From NCBI RefSeq assembly GCF_037076345.1, contig NZ_AP024702.1, forward strand, positions 5,394,001 through 5,458,000: a stretch of 64,000 bases of DNA, given 5' to 3'. Positions 523 to 6,586 of the stretch are shown here, one piece after another. Source of the stretch: Haloferula helveola. Lineage in GTDB: Bacteria; Verrucomicrobiota; Verrucomicrobiia; Verrucomicrobiales; Akkermansiaceae. The number at the start of each line of letters is the position of its first letter. Position 1 is the first letter of the stretch. The position numbers and the translations under genes were made by a program. The notes under the pieces were generated by a model. That model did no database searches. It was given only the letters and a program-made list of their open reading frames with translations, and was not told where the DNA came from.

Positions 523-613
523 GGGCCGGTGGCTGAGAGGTCGAAAGCGCTCCCCTGCTAAGGGAGTATACCCCAAAAGGGTATCGAGGGTTCGAATCCC
601 TCCCGGTCCGCCA
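523..613 (+). tRNA. tRNA-Ser(GCU), attachment-site tRNA
   Basis: The 91-nt sequence folds as a class II tRNA. The acceptor arm pairs GGGCCGG (523-529) with CCGGTCC (603-609), followed by discriminator G and an encoded CCA (611-613). The anticodon stem-loop CTCCC CTGCTAA GGGAG gives anticodon GCU. A long variable arm (TACCC-CAAAA-GGGTA) is typical of Ser, and the T-arm GAGGGTTCGAATCCCTC is intact. The last 32 nt are repeated at 5722-5753 and are the integration site of the island. The tRNA is reconstituted whole on the left side, so it should still work. Confidence 0.97.
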
Positions 614-1823
614 TCGCACTCCTTGGACAACGATGGACAGCGGTGACCAATCCGTTCCCATTGAGGGACTTACGAGCCGATCCCGAACTACTACGGGAGT
701 CGGAGAAGTGGCCAGACTTGGACACCGCTGGACCACTTTTCCCAGATTTGAGGGATGATATAGGGGATGATTGCAACCGGGGCACCTTGGCCAACTCACC
801 CGCCATTTCGAGCTGATGGCCGTCGGTGTAGAGATTCATCGTGAGGCGAATGTCCCCATGACGCATGAGTTTCTGAGCAACAGCCGGAGACACGCTTGAA
901 GAGGTCAGAAACGTGGCAAACGTCCGCCGGAAGGAATGGAACTCTAGCCCCCGGCCCCGGTCGTCAAACTCGGCCACTCCCGCCAAAGCCAGATCGAGCC
1001 GAAATCGCTCCATCTGAGTAACGCCTTTAAAGAAGACTTTCCGCGATCCGTCCGGCGCATTGGCAATTAGCCAGCGAAGCGATGCCAAGGCGTCAGGGTG
1101 AAGGACGAGACAGCCTCCTTTGCGGTTCTTCGTGGTCGATGCAGCCAGCTCAATCCGGGGGCGCGTCCCCTCCAAAGTCACTCGCGATCGCTCAAGGGCC
1201 TTCAGCTCGGCTTTCCGGAGACCGGTGAACGCCGCGACTGTGTAGAGGTGGCCACGATACTCCGGAACGCTTCGGATGAAGGACGACAGCTCCCCGAGCG
1301 TGAACGCCCGCTTCTCATCGTCCCGAATCACGCGCAAAGCCTTCACGGACCGGAGCGGGTTCTTTTCAATCATCTCCTGGTCGACCATCCAACCGAGGAA
1401 CGCGCTCAACGGCGCGAGGTGATCGTTGAGCGTCTTCGGCTGCAAACCGCCCTTGCGCTTGAGCTTTCGCCAACGCTCAAACTCGACGGCGGACACATCG
1501 CCGATCCGCCGCCAGTCGCAATCCCGAAACACCCGCGTCGGTTTGTTGCGGCAGTTCACCCGGTGCTTTTCGGTGACGTCCGGGGCAAGTCCCTCCTCGA
1601 TCCACTGCTCCAGAAGTTCCGAGAGAGGAGCTAGGGCGGATTCCCGCTGGATCTTCGCCACCAGAATGCCGGCCAGTTCCTTCTCGCGACTCAGAACGAG
1701 CTCCCGGGCAAGTGACTCCGCCGCCTCCTTCGATCGCACCCCCAGCGGTTCATCGTATTGGCGACCGCGAATGGAGAACCGAACGCGGTAGGTCTTGCAC
1801 CCACTCTGCCTGAAAACCCTCAT
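558..1823 (-). CDS. int: Tyrosine recombinase (integrase), C-terminus altered by integration
   Basis: A 421-residue phage-type integrase that would insert and excise the element at the tRNA-Ser 3' end. The full catalytic set is visible: R203 (TGLRKAE), K232 (TTKNRKGG), H296-x-x-R299 (EFHSFRRTF), H322 (LMRHGD) and the nucleophile Y332 (MNLYTDG). Residues 1-170 carry an arm-binding and core-binding region. The ATG at 1823 overlaps the excisionase stop by ATGA, so the two are coupled. The frame does not stop before attL: residues 404-414 (MADREGFEPSI) are the antisense of the tRNA, and the last seven residues come from the host half of the tRNA gene. In the excised circle the same frame would continue into 5721-5524, giving about 479 residues. 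The catalytic domain is complete in both forms. Confidence 0.95.
   Translation of the reverse strand: MRVFRQSGCKTYRVRFSIRGRQYDEPLGVRSKEAAESLARELVLSREKELAGILVAKIQRESALAPLSELLEQWIEEGLAPDVTEKHRVNCRNKPTRVFRDCDWRRIGDVSAVEFERWRKLKRKGGLQPKTLNDHLAPLSAFLGWMVDQEMIEKNPLRSVKALRVIRDDEKRAFTLGELSSFIRSVPEYRGHLYTVAAFTGLRKAELKALERSRVTLEGTRPRIELAASTTKNRKGGCLVLHPDALASLRWLIANAPDGSRKVFFKGVTQMERFRLDLALAGVAEFDDRGRGLEFHSFRRTFATFLTSSSVSPAVAQKLMRHGDIRLTMNLYTDGHQLEMAGELAKVPRLQSSPISSLKSGKSGPAVSKSGHFSDSRSSSGSARKSLNGNGLVTAVHRCPRSAMADREGFEPSIPFWGILP
582..613 (+). repeat. attL: 32-bp core inside tRNA-Ser 3' end
   Basis: This is identical to 5722-5753; flanking bases differ on both sides (581 g versus 5721 a, 614 t versus 5754 c). 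It covers the end of the variable arm, the T-arm, the 3' acceptor strand and CCA. On the minus strand it encodes residues 404-414 of the integrase. Confidence 0.95.
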
Positions 1824-2008
1824 CGTGTTGCCGTCGCCTCAATCTGACGCCTCAGGTAATCGTCGAGATCCGACTTCAAAACGAGGACCCTACCACCCTC
1901 CTTGAATGCCCTCAGGTGACCGTCCCGGATCCGGCGCCGAACCGACTTCACCGAGGTCTTAAGCCGCTCTGCCACGTCACGGAGCGTTAGAATCTCGTCC
2001 TCACTCAC
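1820..2008 (-). CDS. Excisionase-like HTH protein (62 aa)
   Basis: A small basic protein with a MerR/AlpA-type winged helix: LTLRDVAERLKTSVKSVRRR followed by IRDGHLRAFKEGGRVLVLKSDLDDYL, the pattern of HTH_17-family excisionases and DNA-binding accessory proteins. I chose GTG 2008 because GGGGAG lies seven bases upstream and the preceding gene ends at 2011. A longer in-frame GTG at 2050 would overlap that gene by 40 bases. The stop overlaps the int ATG (ATGA), which is typical of a co-translated xis-int pair. The probable role is directing Int toward excision or controlling the operon. Confidence 0.85.
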   Translation of the reverse strand: MSEDEILTLRDVAERLKTSVKSVRRRIRDGHLRAFKEGGRVLVLKSDLDDYLRRQIEATATR

Positions 2009-2010
2009 TT

Positions 2011-2490
2011 CTAGTCTCCCCTCTTGCTTGCCTGCCACTGCGAGTGCCACTCCCAGAACTTACCTTCCCAATCTGGCCTGTCCCCCTCGAGTTCCTCCTG
2101 GGTAACTCGGCCGAGGCGGATCATCCGGTCCTCAAGCTCGGACGCCCACAGCTTGAGCTCGCAGACAGGAATGTAGACGAGCGGAGTTTCGCGGGCCTGC
2201 CGTTGCTTCCCAAACAGGCTCCTGCGGGTCGACGTGACGTAGAAACAAAAAGCCGACAGCTTTCCCTCCTTCACGCTCTTGTGAACGGCAGCGCGAGAGA
2301 CGGGCGCAAACATACTGGCCCCACCGGGTGAGACACACCGGCCGGCAACCTCGCAGACCGCCTCAAACCACGGTCCAGAGGTCCCCTCGGGGCCCTCGGC
2401 CTGGTACATTCGCGTCCCCGGAACGCACGATCCGAACACATGCCGGATCTCTTCGGGGATCTCCACAATTCGCGCTTCCTCGGGGGCCAT
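2011..2490 (-). CDS. Element-encoded protein with HTH-like segment
   Basis: 159 residues, first gene of the run hth-xis-int, starting at ATG 2490. It ends two bases before the xis start and is therefore probably in the same transcript. The segment at about residues 60-80 (MFAPVSRAAVHKSVKEGKLS) reads as a helix-turn-helix of the kind 'xSRxAVxxxVKEGKL', followed by a beta-rich stretch ending in VYIPVCELKLWASELE, which resembles the wing and linker of helix-turn-helix_17 proteins. I do not assign a name. A regulator of the excision genes or a recombination directionality factor would fit position and motif. Confidence 0.75.
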   Translation of the reverse strand: MAPEEARIVEIPEEIRHVFGSCVPGTRMYQAEGPEGTSGPWFEAVCEVAGRCVSPGGASMFAPVSRAAVHKSVKEGKLSAFCFYVTSTRRSLFGKQRQARETPLVYIPVCELKLWASELEDRMIRLGRVTQEELEGDRPDWEGKFWEWHSQWQASKRGD

Positions 2491-2625
2491 GACCCGAGAA
2501 ATACCGGAAAGTTACGGAACGTCAACCGGAAGTTGGAGTTTCGTCAACGTTCTCGGTGAGTGGGGGTGGACAGTTGCGGTAGTGGTGTGAACCTAAATGG
2601 GGAACGTCATAGCACACCAAGAGCC
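2491..2625. promoter_or_regulatory. Intergenic upstream of the hth-xis-int operon
   Basis: This 135-bp gap lies between the TPR-like cargo gene and the operon head, so it must hold any promoter that drives hth-xis-int. It contains the inverted pair GGTGTG/CACACC (around 2585-2620), but no attC-like RYYYAAC/GTTRRRY pair, so the cargo gene 2626-3159 has no recognisable recombination site on its 3' side. I see no clear -35/-10 pair. Confidence 0.35.
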
Positions 2626-3159
2626 TCAGCGAGAAACGCCGGTCGTGGATTTCTCTTTTGCCCTGCACTTCCTCAACCAATCTTGCGTCACGGCGAGCCT
2701 CTCAAGTTTCCAATTCACATTCTCGCTGTCGGCAGCTTTGGAGCTCAGCTCATTAATACAAGGTTCGAGCGCTGCGTCAGCCTCCTTGTGAAGACCAAGA
2801 TCCTCCAACGCCCGAGCCATCCCAAGTCGGGCCAGCCATACAACACTCTCTTGGTGGAGAGTATTAGCTTCAATTGCCCTTTCAAACGCATCCACTGCTT
2901 TCTCGTGCGCTCCAACTGCTCGCTCACAAACTCCGACCTCAAACCACAAACGCGATGGCACGAACCCGGTAGAACAGCCTATTTTGACAACCGCCCCCCG
3001 ATATCCACGGAGGGCTGCTTCGTAGTCTCCATCAATCTGAGCTTGGCGAGCTTGCATTAGAGAAGATGCCAATGTGTCCCCGTGCACTGTCCCGAGACAT
3101 AGCACAATGAGGAGCGCCATCTGAGTTGTTCGGAGCCAGTGTCGGAGCTGCGAGTTCAT
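2626..3159 (-). CDS. Secreted tetratricopeptide-like protein (cassette cargo)
   Basis: 177 residues from ATG 3159; a longer frame exists, but this start lies 10 bases after the attC R' box and begins with a signal peptide (MNSQLRHWLRTTQMALLIVL, cleavage near AxG). The mature part reads as helical repeats: SLMQARQAQIDGDYEAALRG, GVCERAVGAHEKAVDAFERA and GMARALEDLGLHKEADAALE, each with the TPR spacing of small and large residues. It probably forms a periplasmic protein-protein interaction domain; the partner is unknown. Base composition is lower in GC than the chromosomal genes. It lies directly downstream of a complete attC, as the next cassette in an array would, but lacks its own attC. Confidence 0.75.
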   Translation of the reverse strand: MNSQLRHWLRTTQMALLIVLCLGTVHGDTLASSLMQARQAQIDGDYEAALRGYRGAVVKIGCSTGFVPSRLWFEVGVCERAVGAHEKAVDAFERAIEANTLHQESVVWLARLGMARALEDLGLHKEADAALEPCINELSSKAADSENVNWKLERLAVTQDWLRKCRAKEKSTTGVSR

Positions 3160-3168
3160 GTTGTCTTC

Positions 3169-3300
3169 ACCCAACGTCAAAACTGAGGCGATCCCGGTAA
3201 CCTCACCAGGAACGCCGCAAGCATTCAATCAGTTACCGAAGTGGGCGGCAAGCTTGCTACAAAGCCGCTGTGAGGGATCGCCTCCAGTGTCTTGTTGGGC
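3169..3300 (-). other. attC recombination site (integron gene-cassette site)
   Basis: Read in gene sense (minus), it begins with R'' GCCCAAC (3300-3294) and ends with R' GTTGGGT (3175-3169), matching RYYYAAC and GTTRRRY. Inside are arms ACTG-G-AGGCGATCCC and GGGATCGCCTCAGT, perfectly complementary except for one extra G in the first (L'') arm. This is the extrahelical base that sets attC polarity, and its position agrees with the gene orientation. The 132-nt length is within the known range, and the loop holds further stems (GGTAAC/GTTACC, GCGGC/GCCGC). The lipoprotein gene stops 4 nt before it and the TPR-like gene starts 10 nt after it. Both placements are normal for cassettes. Confidence 0.85.
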
Positions 3301-3304
3301 TTGT

Positions 3305-3859
3305 TCATTTGGTGTCTTTATCCTCCCGAGAAACTTGCCGAGATGCCTCTAGAAGCGCTCGGATCAAGAGGACCGGTGAAACCGATAGCTCGTCTTCCTC
3401 CATGTCAACGATCGTGCAACGCCCACCAATGACTGAGCTCGATTGATCCAGACTCTCACCGAAACGGGGACTGGCATAAATCATCAATACGCCCTCCCCA
3501 TGGAAGCTTAGATCTAGCGTGTCGAGCCGGCTCCGGCAGGCAGCAATCATGTCCGTTCTGCCCGCTGATTCGGACTCTACGAATTCTCCGCCATCTGTCC
3601 GCATCGCCAGAACCACGGCTTCGATTCCAAGCTCGGCAATGAGTTGCCCGTAGTCTGGTTCTACGTGCTCGAACGACTGGGATGCCGATTCAGGGTGCAG
3701 TCCCATCCTGGTGTTGACCTCACCGGCACCAATCGGTTGTTCGAATTCTGGTTCTACGTGCTTGGTTGCCGGGATGGCCAATTTGGCGTCCTGCCCCGTT
3801 TCGGATTCGTCGCACCCGGTGGTCAAAAGGACCGGGATGATGCAAAGAAAGCGATTCAT
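3305..3859 (-). CDS. Cassette-borne lipoprotein, unknown function
   Basis: 184 residues from ATG 3859, preceded by AAAAGG. The N-terminus MNRFLCIIPVLLTTGC is a signal peptide with lipobox LTTGC. The mature part contains two similar short segments (KHVEPEFEQPIGA and EHVEPDYGQLIAE), a weak internal duplication. The second half alternates beta strands and helices (GIEAVVLAMRTDGG, GVLMIYASPRFGES). No family recognised. The gene plus attC 3169-3300 form a complete integron-type cassette: a lone R' box (GTTGGGC in gene sense, 3898-3892) lies 33 bases upstream of the start. Surface or periplasmic location is inferred from the lipobox. Confidence 0.8.
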   Translation of the reverse strand: MNRFLCIIPVLLTTGCDESETGQDAKLAIPATKHVEPEFEQPIGAGEVNTRMGLHPESASQSFEHVEPDYGQLIAELGIEAVVLAMRTDGGEFVESESAGRTDMIAACRSRLDTLDLSFHGEGVLMIYASPRFGESLDQSSSVIGGRCTIVDMEEDELSVSPVLLIRALLEASRQVSREDKDTK

Positions 3860-4153
3860 CCTTTTGGAACGCCTCCGGGCTCAGTTTCTTAGCCCAACGT
3901 TGAAGGACGGGAGGCCCGGGGAGCGGACCGGGTGATTCTCCGCCATACCGCCGGCAGGCAGAGCGGCTGCCATGGCTGGACGTGGATCCTCAACCATCTC
4001 AGGGGATATTTGGCGGGTACTAAATATTGAGACAAGGAAATCCGGAAGCTACACACTACCAGAGAATCTGTGGAATGATCTCGCGAGAGCACCACGTCGT
4101 TCCGGAAAGCTCCGGGGCGGGCCATCAAGCGGAACCTTTTCGACGTCCGACCC
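3860..4153. other. Non-coding stretch with lone attC R' box
   Basis: 294 bp between rep and the lipoprotein cassette. On the minus strand ACGTTGGGC ends at 3892, the same ACGTTGGGY core as the complete attC, so it looks like the 3' edge of a preceding attC. I find no matching RYYYAAC partner in gene sense up to the rep stop, so that site appears truncated. No convincing gene is seen on either strand. Replication origin signals for the HUH Rep could lie here, but I cannot identify a nick site. Confidence 0.5.
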
Positions 4154-5527
4154 CTATTCCGCTTGACCGCCCGCCCCTCCGCTTTGGGGATCGTCTATGA
4201 CTCTTCTTCGGTGAAGAAGAGTCGGGGACTCTCCTTCGGGTGGATCCGAGCCGCCCACGAACTTTGGGCCACAGATTTCCCGCAAAGCCTCGATCCGTCG
4301 ATTCCCGTGGAACTGGCCGGATCCCGTGTAGTTCATCACCACGACTATAGGCTCCGCCCGCGTGGTTAGAACCGTGGACGGGGGCAGATTCGCAACGATC
4401 CAGTCCTTCGGCGGCTCGTCGTAGTGCTTCGGCTTCTCCTCGACTTCCTTCCGGCACCCTCCCCCGTTCCATTTGGGAAGCGCTTTCAGGTGGCTCTGAC
4501 CGCTGCCAGGAATCCGCACCAAGCACTGCCGCGTCTCCTCAAGCTCTTTCCGCTGAAGCTTCAGCTCCCCGAGGCATTGCACGAGCTTTCGCCCAAACAG
4601 CTGCCGATGAAGTTCCGCCAGCTCGGGTGCCGTCAGAATTTCGAGCTCGGCCGGCTTCACCACGTATTTGCAGGTTTCCCGAACGCCCTCCAATTTCCCC
4701 GCTTCATGGAAGTAGAAATTCCACCACGTCTGAACCTTGTCCCTAAACTTGCACCACTCTTCCAGCGGCAGCTTTCGTTCCACATCGACAATTGCGTGCG
4801 CGTGGATGTGGAAAGTGGGAGTCCCCGTTTCATCGCGAGCGACGCACCCCAATTCCGTTGACCGAAATACGATCGAAACTCCGGCCGCACGCATGAATGG
4901 GCGTGCGTTGAGCTTCGAGATCCTGCGGGACAGCCACTCGACACGCTCTTTGACCTCGTGAAGAGGCGTCCGGACGCCGGTGGTGAACACCCACATTCGG
5001 GAGAAGGGGTGAGCCTGGACGAAGTATTCCAGCTGCTTGAGCATCTGGCTACGTTTCCGCTGCGCGACCAACGGGATGAATACGATGTTGCGGAAGTCAG
5101 GTAGCTCGATGGACTCACCCGAGATCACGCCGACCATCGAGAGCTTGGCCGTCCCGTACGCCTTGATGCCCTGTGACTCCAACGCGTCCGCGATCCGGTA
5201 GGATTGCTCCACGAGCACGGCGCGCAACTGATCCTGCTTGTCCTTCGCGCCGACGTCGATGTCCCGACCCGTGAGAGCCTGACAAAGGGCGAAGTAGAAC
5301 GCCTCCGCTCGAGATCCTGCCAGTTCCTTGAGCCGAGCCACCGCGGGAGCCGTGCCGGGCGCCCCAAGGTGCGCCCCGGCGCCGGCCTCCCGCGGGTTGA
5401 CCCCATCCGGGGACACAGGATAGGATCCCGTCGAGTTCTGATTCCCGCCACAGGAAGATGCTCGATTCGGGGCCGTTGATGTTGACGCATCGGCGGCCCC
5501 CTTTTCGTCCGGGGGTGGCTGCTTCAC
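4154..5527 (-). CDS. HUH-type replication initiator (rolling-circle Rep)
   Basis: 457 residues. The HUH motif is FHIHAHAIVD (H240, H242, H244), preceded by an RSTELG..ETGTPT strand typical of Rep motif II. The catalytic tyrosine motif is ETCKYVVKP (Y288) about 44 residues later, with the Lys two turns on, as in plasmid Rep proteins with a single Tyr. Motif I is probably MWVFTTGVRTPLHEV (about 178). Residues 1-65 are low-complexity and the C-terminal 120 are rich in K, E and P. The start is GTG 5527, whose GTGA overlaps the stop of the detached integrase tail. In the integrated state nothing upstream except that tail, attR and a strong hairpin precedes it, so it should be poorly expressed until excision. 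Confidence 0.88.
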   Translation of the reverse strand: MKQPPPDEKGAADASTSTAPNRASSCGGNQNSTGSYPVSPDGVNPREAGAGAHLGAPGTAPAVARLKELAGSRAEAFYFALCQALTGRDIDVGAKDKQDQLRAVLVEQSYRIADALESQGIKAYGTAKLSMVGVISGESIELPDFRNIVFIPLVAQRKRSQMLKQLEYFVQAHPFSRMWVFTTGVRTPLHEVKERVEWLSRRISKLNARPFMRAAGVSIVFRSTELGCVARDETGTPTFHIHAHAIVDVERKLPLEEWCKFRDKVQTWWNFYFHEAGKLEGVRETCKYVVKPAELEILTAPELAELHRQLFGRKLVQCLGELKLQRKELEETRQCLVRIPGSGQSHLKALPKWNGGGCRKEVEEKPKHYDEPPKDWIVANLPPSTVLTTRAEPIVVVMNYTGSGQFHGNRRIEALREICGPKFVGGSDPPEGESPTLLHRRRVIDDPQSGGAGGQAE

Positions 5528-5721
5528 GGCACCACCTCCCTTCCGCTGGCGCGAACGATGGCCAAAACGGCCCGCCGCGTGTCCTCACTGAGATTCGGCC
5601 AAGAATCGACAATCTCGGCCAACTCAGGCCGATCTTGCCCAGCTTGCGGGGATGATATGGGGGATGATCGCCCTCCCCCTCCTTCGCTTAACTCCTCATG
5701 CTCAGAGGCTTGCGACGGGCA
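5524..5721 (-). other. Detached 3' coding segment of int (C-terminal extension)
   Basis: Reading minus from attR, the frame that encodes MADREGFEPSI in the repeat continues for 65 codons (CPSQASEHEELSE ... REVVP) and stops at 5524-5526. The last part, PELAEIVDSWPNLSEDTRRA plus VLAIVRASG, reads as a short helical domain like those ending several phage-type integrases. It has no start codon of its own other than a GTG at 5754 outside the element. In the excised circle this piece fuses in frame to int residue 414. Its TGA overlaps the rep GTG, which supports its being real coding sequence rather than chance. Confidence 0.82.
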
Positions 5722-5753
5722 TATCGAGGGTTCGAATCCCTCCCGGTCCGCCA
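5722..5753 (+). repeat. attR: 32-bp copy of the tRNA-Ser 3' end
   Basis: Exact copy of 582-613. Only the T-arm and acceptor 3' strand are present, so no tRNA is formed here. The host sequence that originally followed the tRNA resumes at 5754. Confidence 0.95.
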
Positions 5754-5788
5754 CGACCCGACCCCAGCTCGCTGGGGTCGGGTCGTGG
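5751..5788. terminator. 17-bp perfect hairpin after attR, probable original tRNA-Ser terminator
   Basis: CCACGACCCGACCCCAG (5751-5767) pairs perfectly with 5772-5788 around a CTCG loop, followed by CGTTTCC. The left arm includes the CC of the tRNA CCA end. Before integration it stood immediately downstream of tRNA-Ser, so it most likely ended that transcript. Now it separates rep from chromosomal transcription. The T-run is weak, so termination is inferred from stem strength. Confidence 0.65.
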
Positions 5789-5925
5789 CGTTTCCGGGCG
5801 GGGCCGAGGACACTGGCGAGCCGCAGGCGAGACGGGTTTGAAATCGGAGAGCCGTCCGTGACGGCGACGCACGCCCGGTGCCCGGCGGGGCACCCAAACT
5901 GGAATCGCCGGAGCGGAGCGCAGGC

Positions 5926-5942
5926 AATCCCTCCCGGTCCGC
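5926..5942 (+). repeat. Third, partial copy of the tRNA-Ser end (17 bp)
   Basis: AATCCCTCCCGGTCCGC repeats 597-613 minus the final CA. It lies 172 bp after attR, just before the DUF1080 stop. The spacer holds two small hairpins (GCCGTC-CGT-GACGGC and GGTGCCC/GGGCACC). It may be the relic of an earlier insertion at the same tRNA. Confidence 0.7.
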
Positions 5943-5944
5943 AA

Positions 5945-6586
5945 CTACTTCGTGACTTCCCGGATCGTCAGGTCCTTGAACTCGACGACGAACCTTCCGC
6001 CGCCGTGGGCTTGGAGACCGAGACGTCCTGTGAGGGGGATATCCGGGTCCTGCTCGGTATAATCGACCGCGGCGACGCCATTTACCCAGGTGCGAATCCG
6101 CGGACCCTCGCAAAGAATGCGGATTTCGTTCCAATCCCAATCCTTCACGACAACCGCCAAAGCCTCGGGATTCACCGGTTCGCCGATCACTCGCTTTCTA
6201 CGGGACTCGTCGTAGAGTTTTCCCCACCAACCGATTCCGGCATCAACCTGGTAGCCTCTCATCTCGTGATTGTCCGGCAAACGGACGCTGCGGACCTGGA
6301 TTCCGGAATTCATGAAGCCCTCGCCCTTCACCAACCGGACCTTCAACTTCAGCTCAAAGTCCGAGTAGGTGGCCTTGCTGGCGATGAAGGTGTTGTGCGG
6401 CACTTTCTTTTCCATGGAACCGCCGCGGATCACGCCATCTGCAACGGTCCACCAGCCTTCTTCGCCTTTCCGGATCTCCCATCCATCGAGGGACTTGCCG
6501 TCGAAGAGTGAGACCGCGGGCTCGGCATGGGTGGCCGGACCGAGGAGGAACGACGACAAGACGGTGAAGAGAAGGCGGTATCGCAT
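5945..6586 (-). CDS. DUF1080 (3-keto-disaccharide hydrolase family) secreted protein
   Basis: 213 residues from ATG 6586 (an alternative ATG lies at 6595; neither has a clear ribosome site). The signal peptide MRYRLLFTVLSSFLLGPATHA is followed by the family signature VSLFDGKSLDGWEIRKGEEG, WTVADGVIRGG, SDFELKLKVRL, NSGIQVRS and WNEIRILCEGPRIRTWVNG. The fold is a concanavalin-like beta sandwich; members act on glycans in the periplasm, and some hydrolyse 3-keto-glycosides. It is the first chromosomal gene after the element and ends two bases after the partial tRNA repeat. A single domain of normal length. Confidence 0.9.
   Translation of the reverse strand: MRYRLLFTVLSSFLLGPATHAEPAVSLFDGKSLDGWEIRKGEEGWWTVADGVIRGGSMEKKVPHNTFIASKATYSDFELKLKVRLVKGEGFMNSGIQVRSVRLPDNHEMRGYQVDAGIGWWGKLYDESRRKRVIGEPVNPEALAVVVKDWDWNEIRILCEGPRIRTWVNGVAAVDYTEQDPDIPLTGRLGLQAHGGGRFVVEFKDLTIREVTK

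Follow-up and report, generated by a model that had tools for sequence, protein, structure and literature searches.

A small integrative plasmid of Haloferula helveola that probably carries its attachment site within the integrase gene, so that integration would rewrite the C terminus of the enzyme

The 64,000-nucleotide stretch of the Haloferula helveola genome analysed here (contig NZ_AP024702.1, positions 5,394,001 to 5,458,000; hereafter the window) contains an element integrated in a tRNA-Ser(gct) gene, with two identical 32-bp cores (582-613 and 5722-5753) spaced 5,140 bp apart. We consider it likely that, as part of a single arrangement, this element is a small integrative rolling-circle plasmid, that its attachment site attP lies inside int, the gene for its tyrosine integrase (Int), and that integration rewrites both the C terminus of Int and the run of genes leading from int to the replication initiator gene, rep; the most likely interpretation is that Int and the int-rep operon switch with the state of the element. 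The case is built on the anatomy of the element, on the conservation of the exchanged C-terminal segment (the tail) both in phase and as protein, and on an empty site in a relative. The features are collected in Table 1.

Read from 1823 on the minus strand, int passes without a stop through attL, antisense to the tRNA, and ends in MADREGFEPSI followed by PFWGILP, seven terminal residues encoded by the antisense strand of the host tRNA; an earlier reading of these letters alone (the sequence-only reading) had described this open passage, and the 421-residue product bears it out. That reading had also proposed that the attR copy of the core carries the frame 65 codons further, as indeed it does: the minus-strand frame 5524-5754 opens with the same peptide, its first codon being GTG, and continues beyond the core to the terminus REVVP, where a TGA overlaps the GTG of rep. 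No stop interrupts the circle frame between 614 and 5524, and the joined frame through attP predicts a circle form of Int of 479 residues. The PF00589 match of Int is above the cut-off, and R203, K232, H296, R299, H322 and Y332 are all present; because all six residues of this R-K-H-R-H-Y set precede the core, integration leaves the catalytic domain intact.

The boundaries of the insertion are supported by L019, a relative of the same genus with an empty site: when the right flank, beginning at 5754, was placed directly after the left flank and its intact tRNA gene, the composite aligned with L019 across the junction (83% over 350 nt, with 14 gaps). The tRNA 3' end as target, the duplicated core and the empty site together make up what appears, from the letters alone, to be a recombination signature. 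Partial copies of the tRNA-Ser 3' end also lie downstream of attR in the window (5926-5945) and in L019 (4364-4382 and 4561-4580), where a decayed int remnant adjoins the last of them; these extra copies are perhaps scars of earlier insertions.

The arrangement is not peculiar to the window. Int has 23 homologues (P0003-P0025) that are 37 to 59% identical to it, and 21 of these, all except P0012 and P0020, were judged by eye to end in peptides resembling tRNA antisense. With a profile built from an alignment of 19 sequences, the window Int included, the order search matched 22 genomes out of 386 at E <= 1e-60 and the phylum search 30 out of 387, the genome of the window being counted in each. 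All 19 new places from the order search were taken, together with 20 regions, picked by rank and contig position before any tail was inspected, that take in some of the 34 new places from the phylum search. Adding the window, L016-L018, L020, L022 and L023 brought the total to 46 loci, or 44 distinct ones (L087 is the same as L020, and L111 the same as L022). The int frame overlaps an opposite-strand tRNA gene in 39 of the 44, representing 22 kinds by anticodon, and a core copy of at least 19 nt lies upstream of int in 23. Two of the 21 loci lacking such a copy, L020 and L113, carry a tail; that of L113 follows the same core peptide, and a tRNA was not found at that locus. A tblastn search of PLSDB plasmids returned only distant matches (two records for P0024 and one for the window Int), and viral contigs yielded 14 loci with integrases only 23 to 30% identical.

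The 23 elements with two recognisable ends allow the phase across the core to be compared. None has an int that ends before attP. In 22 of them the int phase meets no stop for 40 codons or more beyond attR, against one in phase +1 (L103) and one in phase +2 (L104, which has Ns at attR), and profiles built from the tails of the other elements, each left out in turn, recover a homologous tail in the int phase in 19. The 19 in-phase tails are associated with tRNA genes of 14 kinds and with each of the three T-loop frames, whose usage among the 23 elements is 12, 8 and 3; the use of all three frames means that the tRNA sequence does not force an open frame. The comparison of sequences thus confirms the in-phase open frame as a conserved family trait rather than a chance open frame, and the proposal that read-through is a neutral by-product of an attP near the 3' end of int, with an accidental frame on the far side, is rejected by the openness of the int phase relative to the other two. 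The predicted circle form is 479, 479, 480, 479, 479 and 479 residues long in six elements whose integrated forms have 421, 447, 435, 426, 416 and 417; a constant circle length was rejected as a general rule, since across 19 elements the circle form has a standard deviation of 17 residues, as against 15 in the integrated form.

Tails could also be sought independently of int. A tail-profile scan of the 387 genomes of the phylum, in which the best 14 candidates per genome were scored, located the tail at 40 places, spread over 33 genomes. Of these, 39 fall in frames of 67 to 211 residues, too short for an integrase, and the 40th, in a frame of 513, is by eye a tail running into rep-like sequence. 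Of 20 further regions around such places, all but one have a tail at E <= 1e-3; they contain 20 tail open reading frames (ORFs) in total, and 18 of these have an antisense T-loop motif no more than 200 nt upstream, compared with 142 of 1,000 random segments. At 253-1713 of L134, and at the same place in L156, the tail continues in frame, by eye, into rep-like sequence as one ORF of 486 residues that begins with a tRNA-antisense peptide; a circle there could encode an Int-Rep fusion. In a second phylum, that of G733, tail matches were found in 30 of the 199 genomes sampled.

Several properties indicate that the tail is maintained as protein. Its consensus is PDLAEVVKAWPNLSPELRTAILAIVRSG. The rate of nonsynonymous change (dN) is below that of synonymous change (dS) in every one of 11 pairs (the pairs are not mutually independent), and across the 28-codon helical core the corresponding ratio of proportions (pN/pS) is 0.44 in six nearer pairs, 0.36 in four nearer pairs and 0.61 over all 171 pairs. 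Synonymous change is lower in the tail than in int, as is expected where DNA sites overlap a coding sequence. One homologue, P0024 (512 residues, encoded on a single 2,712-bp contig), contains int, the tRNA-like peptide GTRIRTSG and the tail in a single chain, as would be expected of a circle or a tandem copy; region searches gave no further single-chain protein. Structure prediction was confined to P0024 and used a 35-row alignment in which few sequences include a tail: the model has a mean predicted local distance difference test score (pLDDT) of 80 and a predicted template modeling score of 0.62, with a low-confidence segment at 385-464 followed by helices at 466-477 and 483-496; the blocks that make up residues 461-500 average 57, 79, 86 and 72. 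The central proposal of the sequence-only reading, that int spans its own attP, has its C terminus swapped and acquires a folded-looking tail in the free form, is strongly supported by these relatives.

The attP-bearing segment is a linker, predicted to be disordered, between the catalytic domain and the C-terminal helical hairpin. Within the window a direct repeat of arm-like layout occurs 124 to 161 nt before the core, in the SSPISSL linker of int, and again 50 to 87 nt after it, in SSPISSP of the tail; both repeats are translated, and the linker accordingly carries, in its coding sequence, putative DNA sites to either side of the core. Similarity of the two sides was assessed against 200 shuffles of the int side. 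An element-specific repeat flanks the core on both sides in 20 of 22 elements (p <= 0.03, L104 being left out), and the test failed in L099 (p 0.12) and L125 (p 0.67). These repeats lie mostly 90 to 161 nt before the core (177 to 204 nt in L096) and mostly 32 to 101 nt after it, and by eye they often take the form of a doubled motif of about 8 nt, the copies about 12 nt apart. Their position and layout suggest that Int or Xis, the probable excisionase, binds them. The whole attP, core and two repeat arrays included, would span about 280 bp in the window.

Beyond the tail, the stop codon and the start of the next ORF overlap by 4 bp in 16 of the 23 elements. Pfam comparison of ten of the 22 next ORFs, for the most part long ones, gave matches to rolling-circle Rep families (Rep_1, REP_ORF2-G2P and Rep_trans) for nine, seven of them above the cut-off, and none for the short next ORF of L095; the short next ORFs of L096, L099, L103, L104, L123 and L125 lie outside this set. 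In L095, L099 and L104 a protein of about 90 to 110 residues occupies the place of rep after the tail, and these proteins are alike by eye (GK+GK...TFDY). Since the Rep families behind it differ, the tail is kept while rep changes; between L022 and L106, for example, similarity is 0.50 for int, 0.47 for the tail and 0.04 for rep. The idea that the tail is part of Rep is disfavoured by these differing families, though the comparison of similarity over all pairs lent no support to co-variation of tail and int. In the window the PF01446 match of rep points to a rolling-circle plasmid, as defined by an initiator of the HUH or Rep_trans kind.

A number of observations weigh against this interpretation. 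No circle of the window element was observed, and the evidence for a single chain is one protein, P0024, from one short contig. Neither attR nor tail was found at 19 of the 44 distinct int loci, of which 10 have 12 to 18 kb upstream of int and 9 have at most about 6 kb. L103, L123 and L125 have no recognisable tail despite an open in-phase frame, and the tail of L104 is out of phase with int. In the second phylum the layout is less regular, with an antisense T-loop upstream of 4 of the 10 tails examined, and in L189, from that phylum, tail and int occupy different frames. For tail and int, comparison of every pair among 15 elements shows no co-variation (Spearman 0.008, p 0.48), whereas the same elements give a correlation of 0.21 (p 0.04) for tail and rep and 0.53 (p 0.0005) for int and rep; we take the nil value as noise at low similarity, yet count it here. 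Finally, rep has its own Shine-Dalgarno-like sequence, GGGAGGTGG, just before its GTG and inside the last codons of the tail, and as a result coupling between int and rep need not be strict.

Two of these loci merit separate description. In L104, around 324-393, the Ns at attR and the out-of-phase tail may reflect an assembly gap or a decayed copy. At 158-1635 of L189, int and a tail stand side by side with what by eye is a sense-oriented 3' end of a tRNA or tmRNA between them, possibly a tandem or another attachment layout.

We suggest that in the circle orf159, xis, int, tail and rep would constitute a single run of genes whose ends overlap, with Int bearing the tail, and that recombination in the tRNA 3' end would cut this run at the core, so that Int would keep its catalytic domain and gain a tRNA-antisense end while tail and rep would end up at the opposite end of the element, remote from the promoter of int, wherever that lies. 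Both forms of Int would be made. The tail may act in the free state, by holding Int multimers for recombination between attP and attB or by contact with another protein; assembly of the integrating complex is our first choice of role, and contact with Rep or the stability of Int are others. The tail-less form would be suited to excision with Xis, and rep would be turned down in the integrated state; it could still be made there if a promoter lies near attR. The full scheme, in which tailed Int, present only in the circle, integrates, tRNA-ended Int, present only in the chromosome, excises with Xis, and detachment of rep switches replication off without a repressor, is put forward tentatively, as a possibility that falls somewhat short of even. 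The sequence-only reading had held that the state of the element alters its integrase; this is strongly supported for the C-terminal exchange, and a change in what Int does is inferred. The overlap of the tail stop with the rep start, the arm-like repeats in coding sequence on both sides and the occurrence of the trait throughout the family go beyond what that reading had proposed.

The remaining explanations differ in which of these observations they accommodate. Integration might be one-way, or suicidal, the tail-less Int being unable to excise and exit requiring an intact Int in trans; the parallel with archaeal suicidal integrases (PMC8371274) and the existence of degenerate copies, among them the int remnant of L019, favour this, but the catalytic domain is whole in the integrated form and a probable xis is retained just upstream of int in the window, L016, L017, L018, L020 and L022, and we regard it as unlikely while granting it an appreciable chance. 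It is rather improbable, in our estimation, that the tail is a leader or coupling segment that delivers ribosomes from int to the start of rep and whose protein sequence is of little matter: the frequent 4-bp overlap, the Shine-Dalgarno-like sequence within the last tail codons, the reduced synonymous change and the weak correlation of tail with rep, there being none with int, would all be explained, whereas the helical motif kept as protein beside differing Rep families, the excess of dS over dN in every pair and the two-helix fold of the model would not.

That the tail exists as a small protein in its own right, translated from a start codon within the attR core when the element is integrated or made together with rep, gains something from cores that supply an ATG or GTG at the right place (GTG in the window, ATG in L016), but the core-coded peptides of L017, L101, L105, L117 and L118 contain no M or V, and there would be no explanation for the agreement in phase with int that 19 of the 20 recognisable tails show; we consider it very improbable. 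The least credible alternative, to which we attach almost no weight, is the neutral by-product rejected above: a tRNA-antisense end of Int needs nothing more than an absent stop, in keeping with the widespread overlap of int and tRNA, but the open int phase, the conserved tail and the use of three T-loop frames are contrary to it. A switch of Int and of the int-rep run remains our preferred reading.

The genes of the element as assigned (orf159, the HTH_17 protein, int, the TPR-like and hypothetical genes and the Rep_1 initiator) are all on the minus strand. Both cargo ORFs (window 2626-3859) are located between orf159 and rep. Seven ORFs were scanned against Pfam; none matched an FtsK/TraB-like conjugative translocase, and the sole helix-turn-helix (HTH) protein among them was the xis-like HTH_17 protein.

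Table 1. Features of the integrated element and its target site (window coordinates)
Feature	Position	Strand	Evidence
Host tRNA-Ser(gct), target gene; 3' end is attB/attL	523..613	+	ARAGORN
int, tyrosine integrase, 421 aa when integrated, tRNA-antisense end	558..1823	-	PF00589, 1.6e-11
attL core, 32 bp	582..613	.	Identity to 5722-5753; joined flanks align across the junction to the L019 empty site
Int-side arm-like direct repeat, in int coding sequence	738..774	-	Matches tail-side copy, p 0.005, 200 shuffles
HTH_17 protein, probable excisionase (xis), overlaps int start by 4 bp	1820..2050	-	PF12728, 2e-13
orf159, element gene upstream of xis	2011..2490	-	38-73% identity in relatives L016, L017, L018, L020
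TPR-like protein, cargo	2626..3228	-	TPR matches below cut-off
Hypothetical protein, cargo	3305..3859	-	Without Pfam match
rep, predicted rolling-circle replication initiator, GTG start overlapping tail stop (GTGA)	4154..5527	-	PF01446, 1.3e-8, above cut-off
int tail, 65 codons in phase across core	5524..5721	-	Reading frame; model of homologous P0024 shows two-helix hairpin
Tail-side arm-like direct repeat, in tail coding sequence	5635..5671	-	
attR core, 32 bp	5722..5753	.	Identity to 582-613
Terminator-like hairpin of tRNA-Ser, host side, displaced by insertion	5752..5793	+	By eye; directly 3' of the tRNA in the L019 empty site

The choice of a tyrosine integrase between integration and excision is usually ascribed to a separate directionality factor. 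If our interpretation is correct, recombination itself rewrites the C terminus of the enzyme and the int-rep operon, and this trait has been kept across many tRNA targets; the data also suggest that a lambda-like attP with arms can sit inside a gene. The two natural forms of Int could be compared directly in integration and excision. For genome annotation there is a practical warning, in that the annotated C terminus of such an integrase can be host tRNA antisense and the conserved C terminus can lie kilobases away, at attR.

Among known systems, actinomycete integrative and conjugative elements such as pSAM2 are small integrative elements with Rep, Xis and Int that use tRNA 3' ends. The gene set and tRNA site are similar here, and RepSA matches occur below the cut-off in three relatives; the present host, however, is not actinobacterial, attP lies inside int, and no translocase was matched in the seven scanned ORFs. 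In ICEKp1, expression of int is changed by excision and integration (PMC13023037), the promoter of int being exchanged there and the C terminus of the protein here.

The sequence-only reading had named the mycobacteriophages BPs and Brujita as precedents for a split integrase. This does not hold: in BPs and its kin attP is placed in the repressor gene and the integrase merely bears a degradation tag (PMC4557955, PMC9262239). The likeness is that attP lies in coding sequence over a tRNA core and that integration shortens a protein at its C terminus; the gene concerned is that of the repressor, whose lost tail has an ssrA-like tag, whereas here it is int, with arm-like repeats in coding sequence on both sides. 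The tail appears to have no degradation-tag-like end, its REVVP terminus not being LAA-like, and this, the helical hairpin in the homologue and the same two papers led us to reject a tag of the mycobacteriophage type.

The closest known system is that of the archaeal suicidal integrases of the SSV1, pTN3 and pT26-2 type, in which attP lies in int and integration splits the gene, and which a 2021 review calls exclusive to archaea (PMC8371274). A search of the open-licence literature by titles and the starts of abstracts, a scope outside which most subscription journals fall, found no bacterial int containing attP. The likeness is the position of attP within int, here deduced from the sequence of both ends. 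The archaeal enzymes have the catalytic fragment cut from the N-terminal part, whereas the present element preserves the entire catalytic domain and trades only a C-terminal hairpin; the integrated Int would probably not be of the inactivated, suicidal type. The host, too, is bacterial rather than archaeal, and the arrangement of attP within an integrase gene would thereby be extended, relative to the account in that review, from archaea to bacteria.

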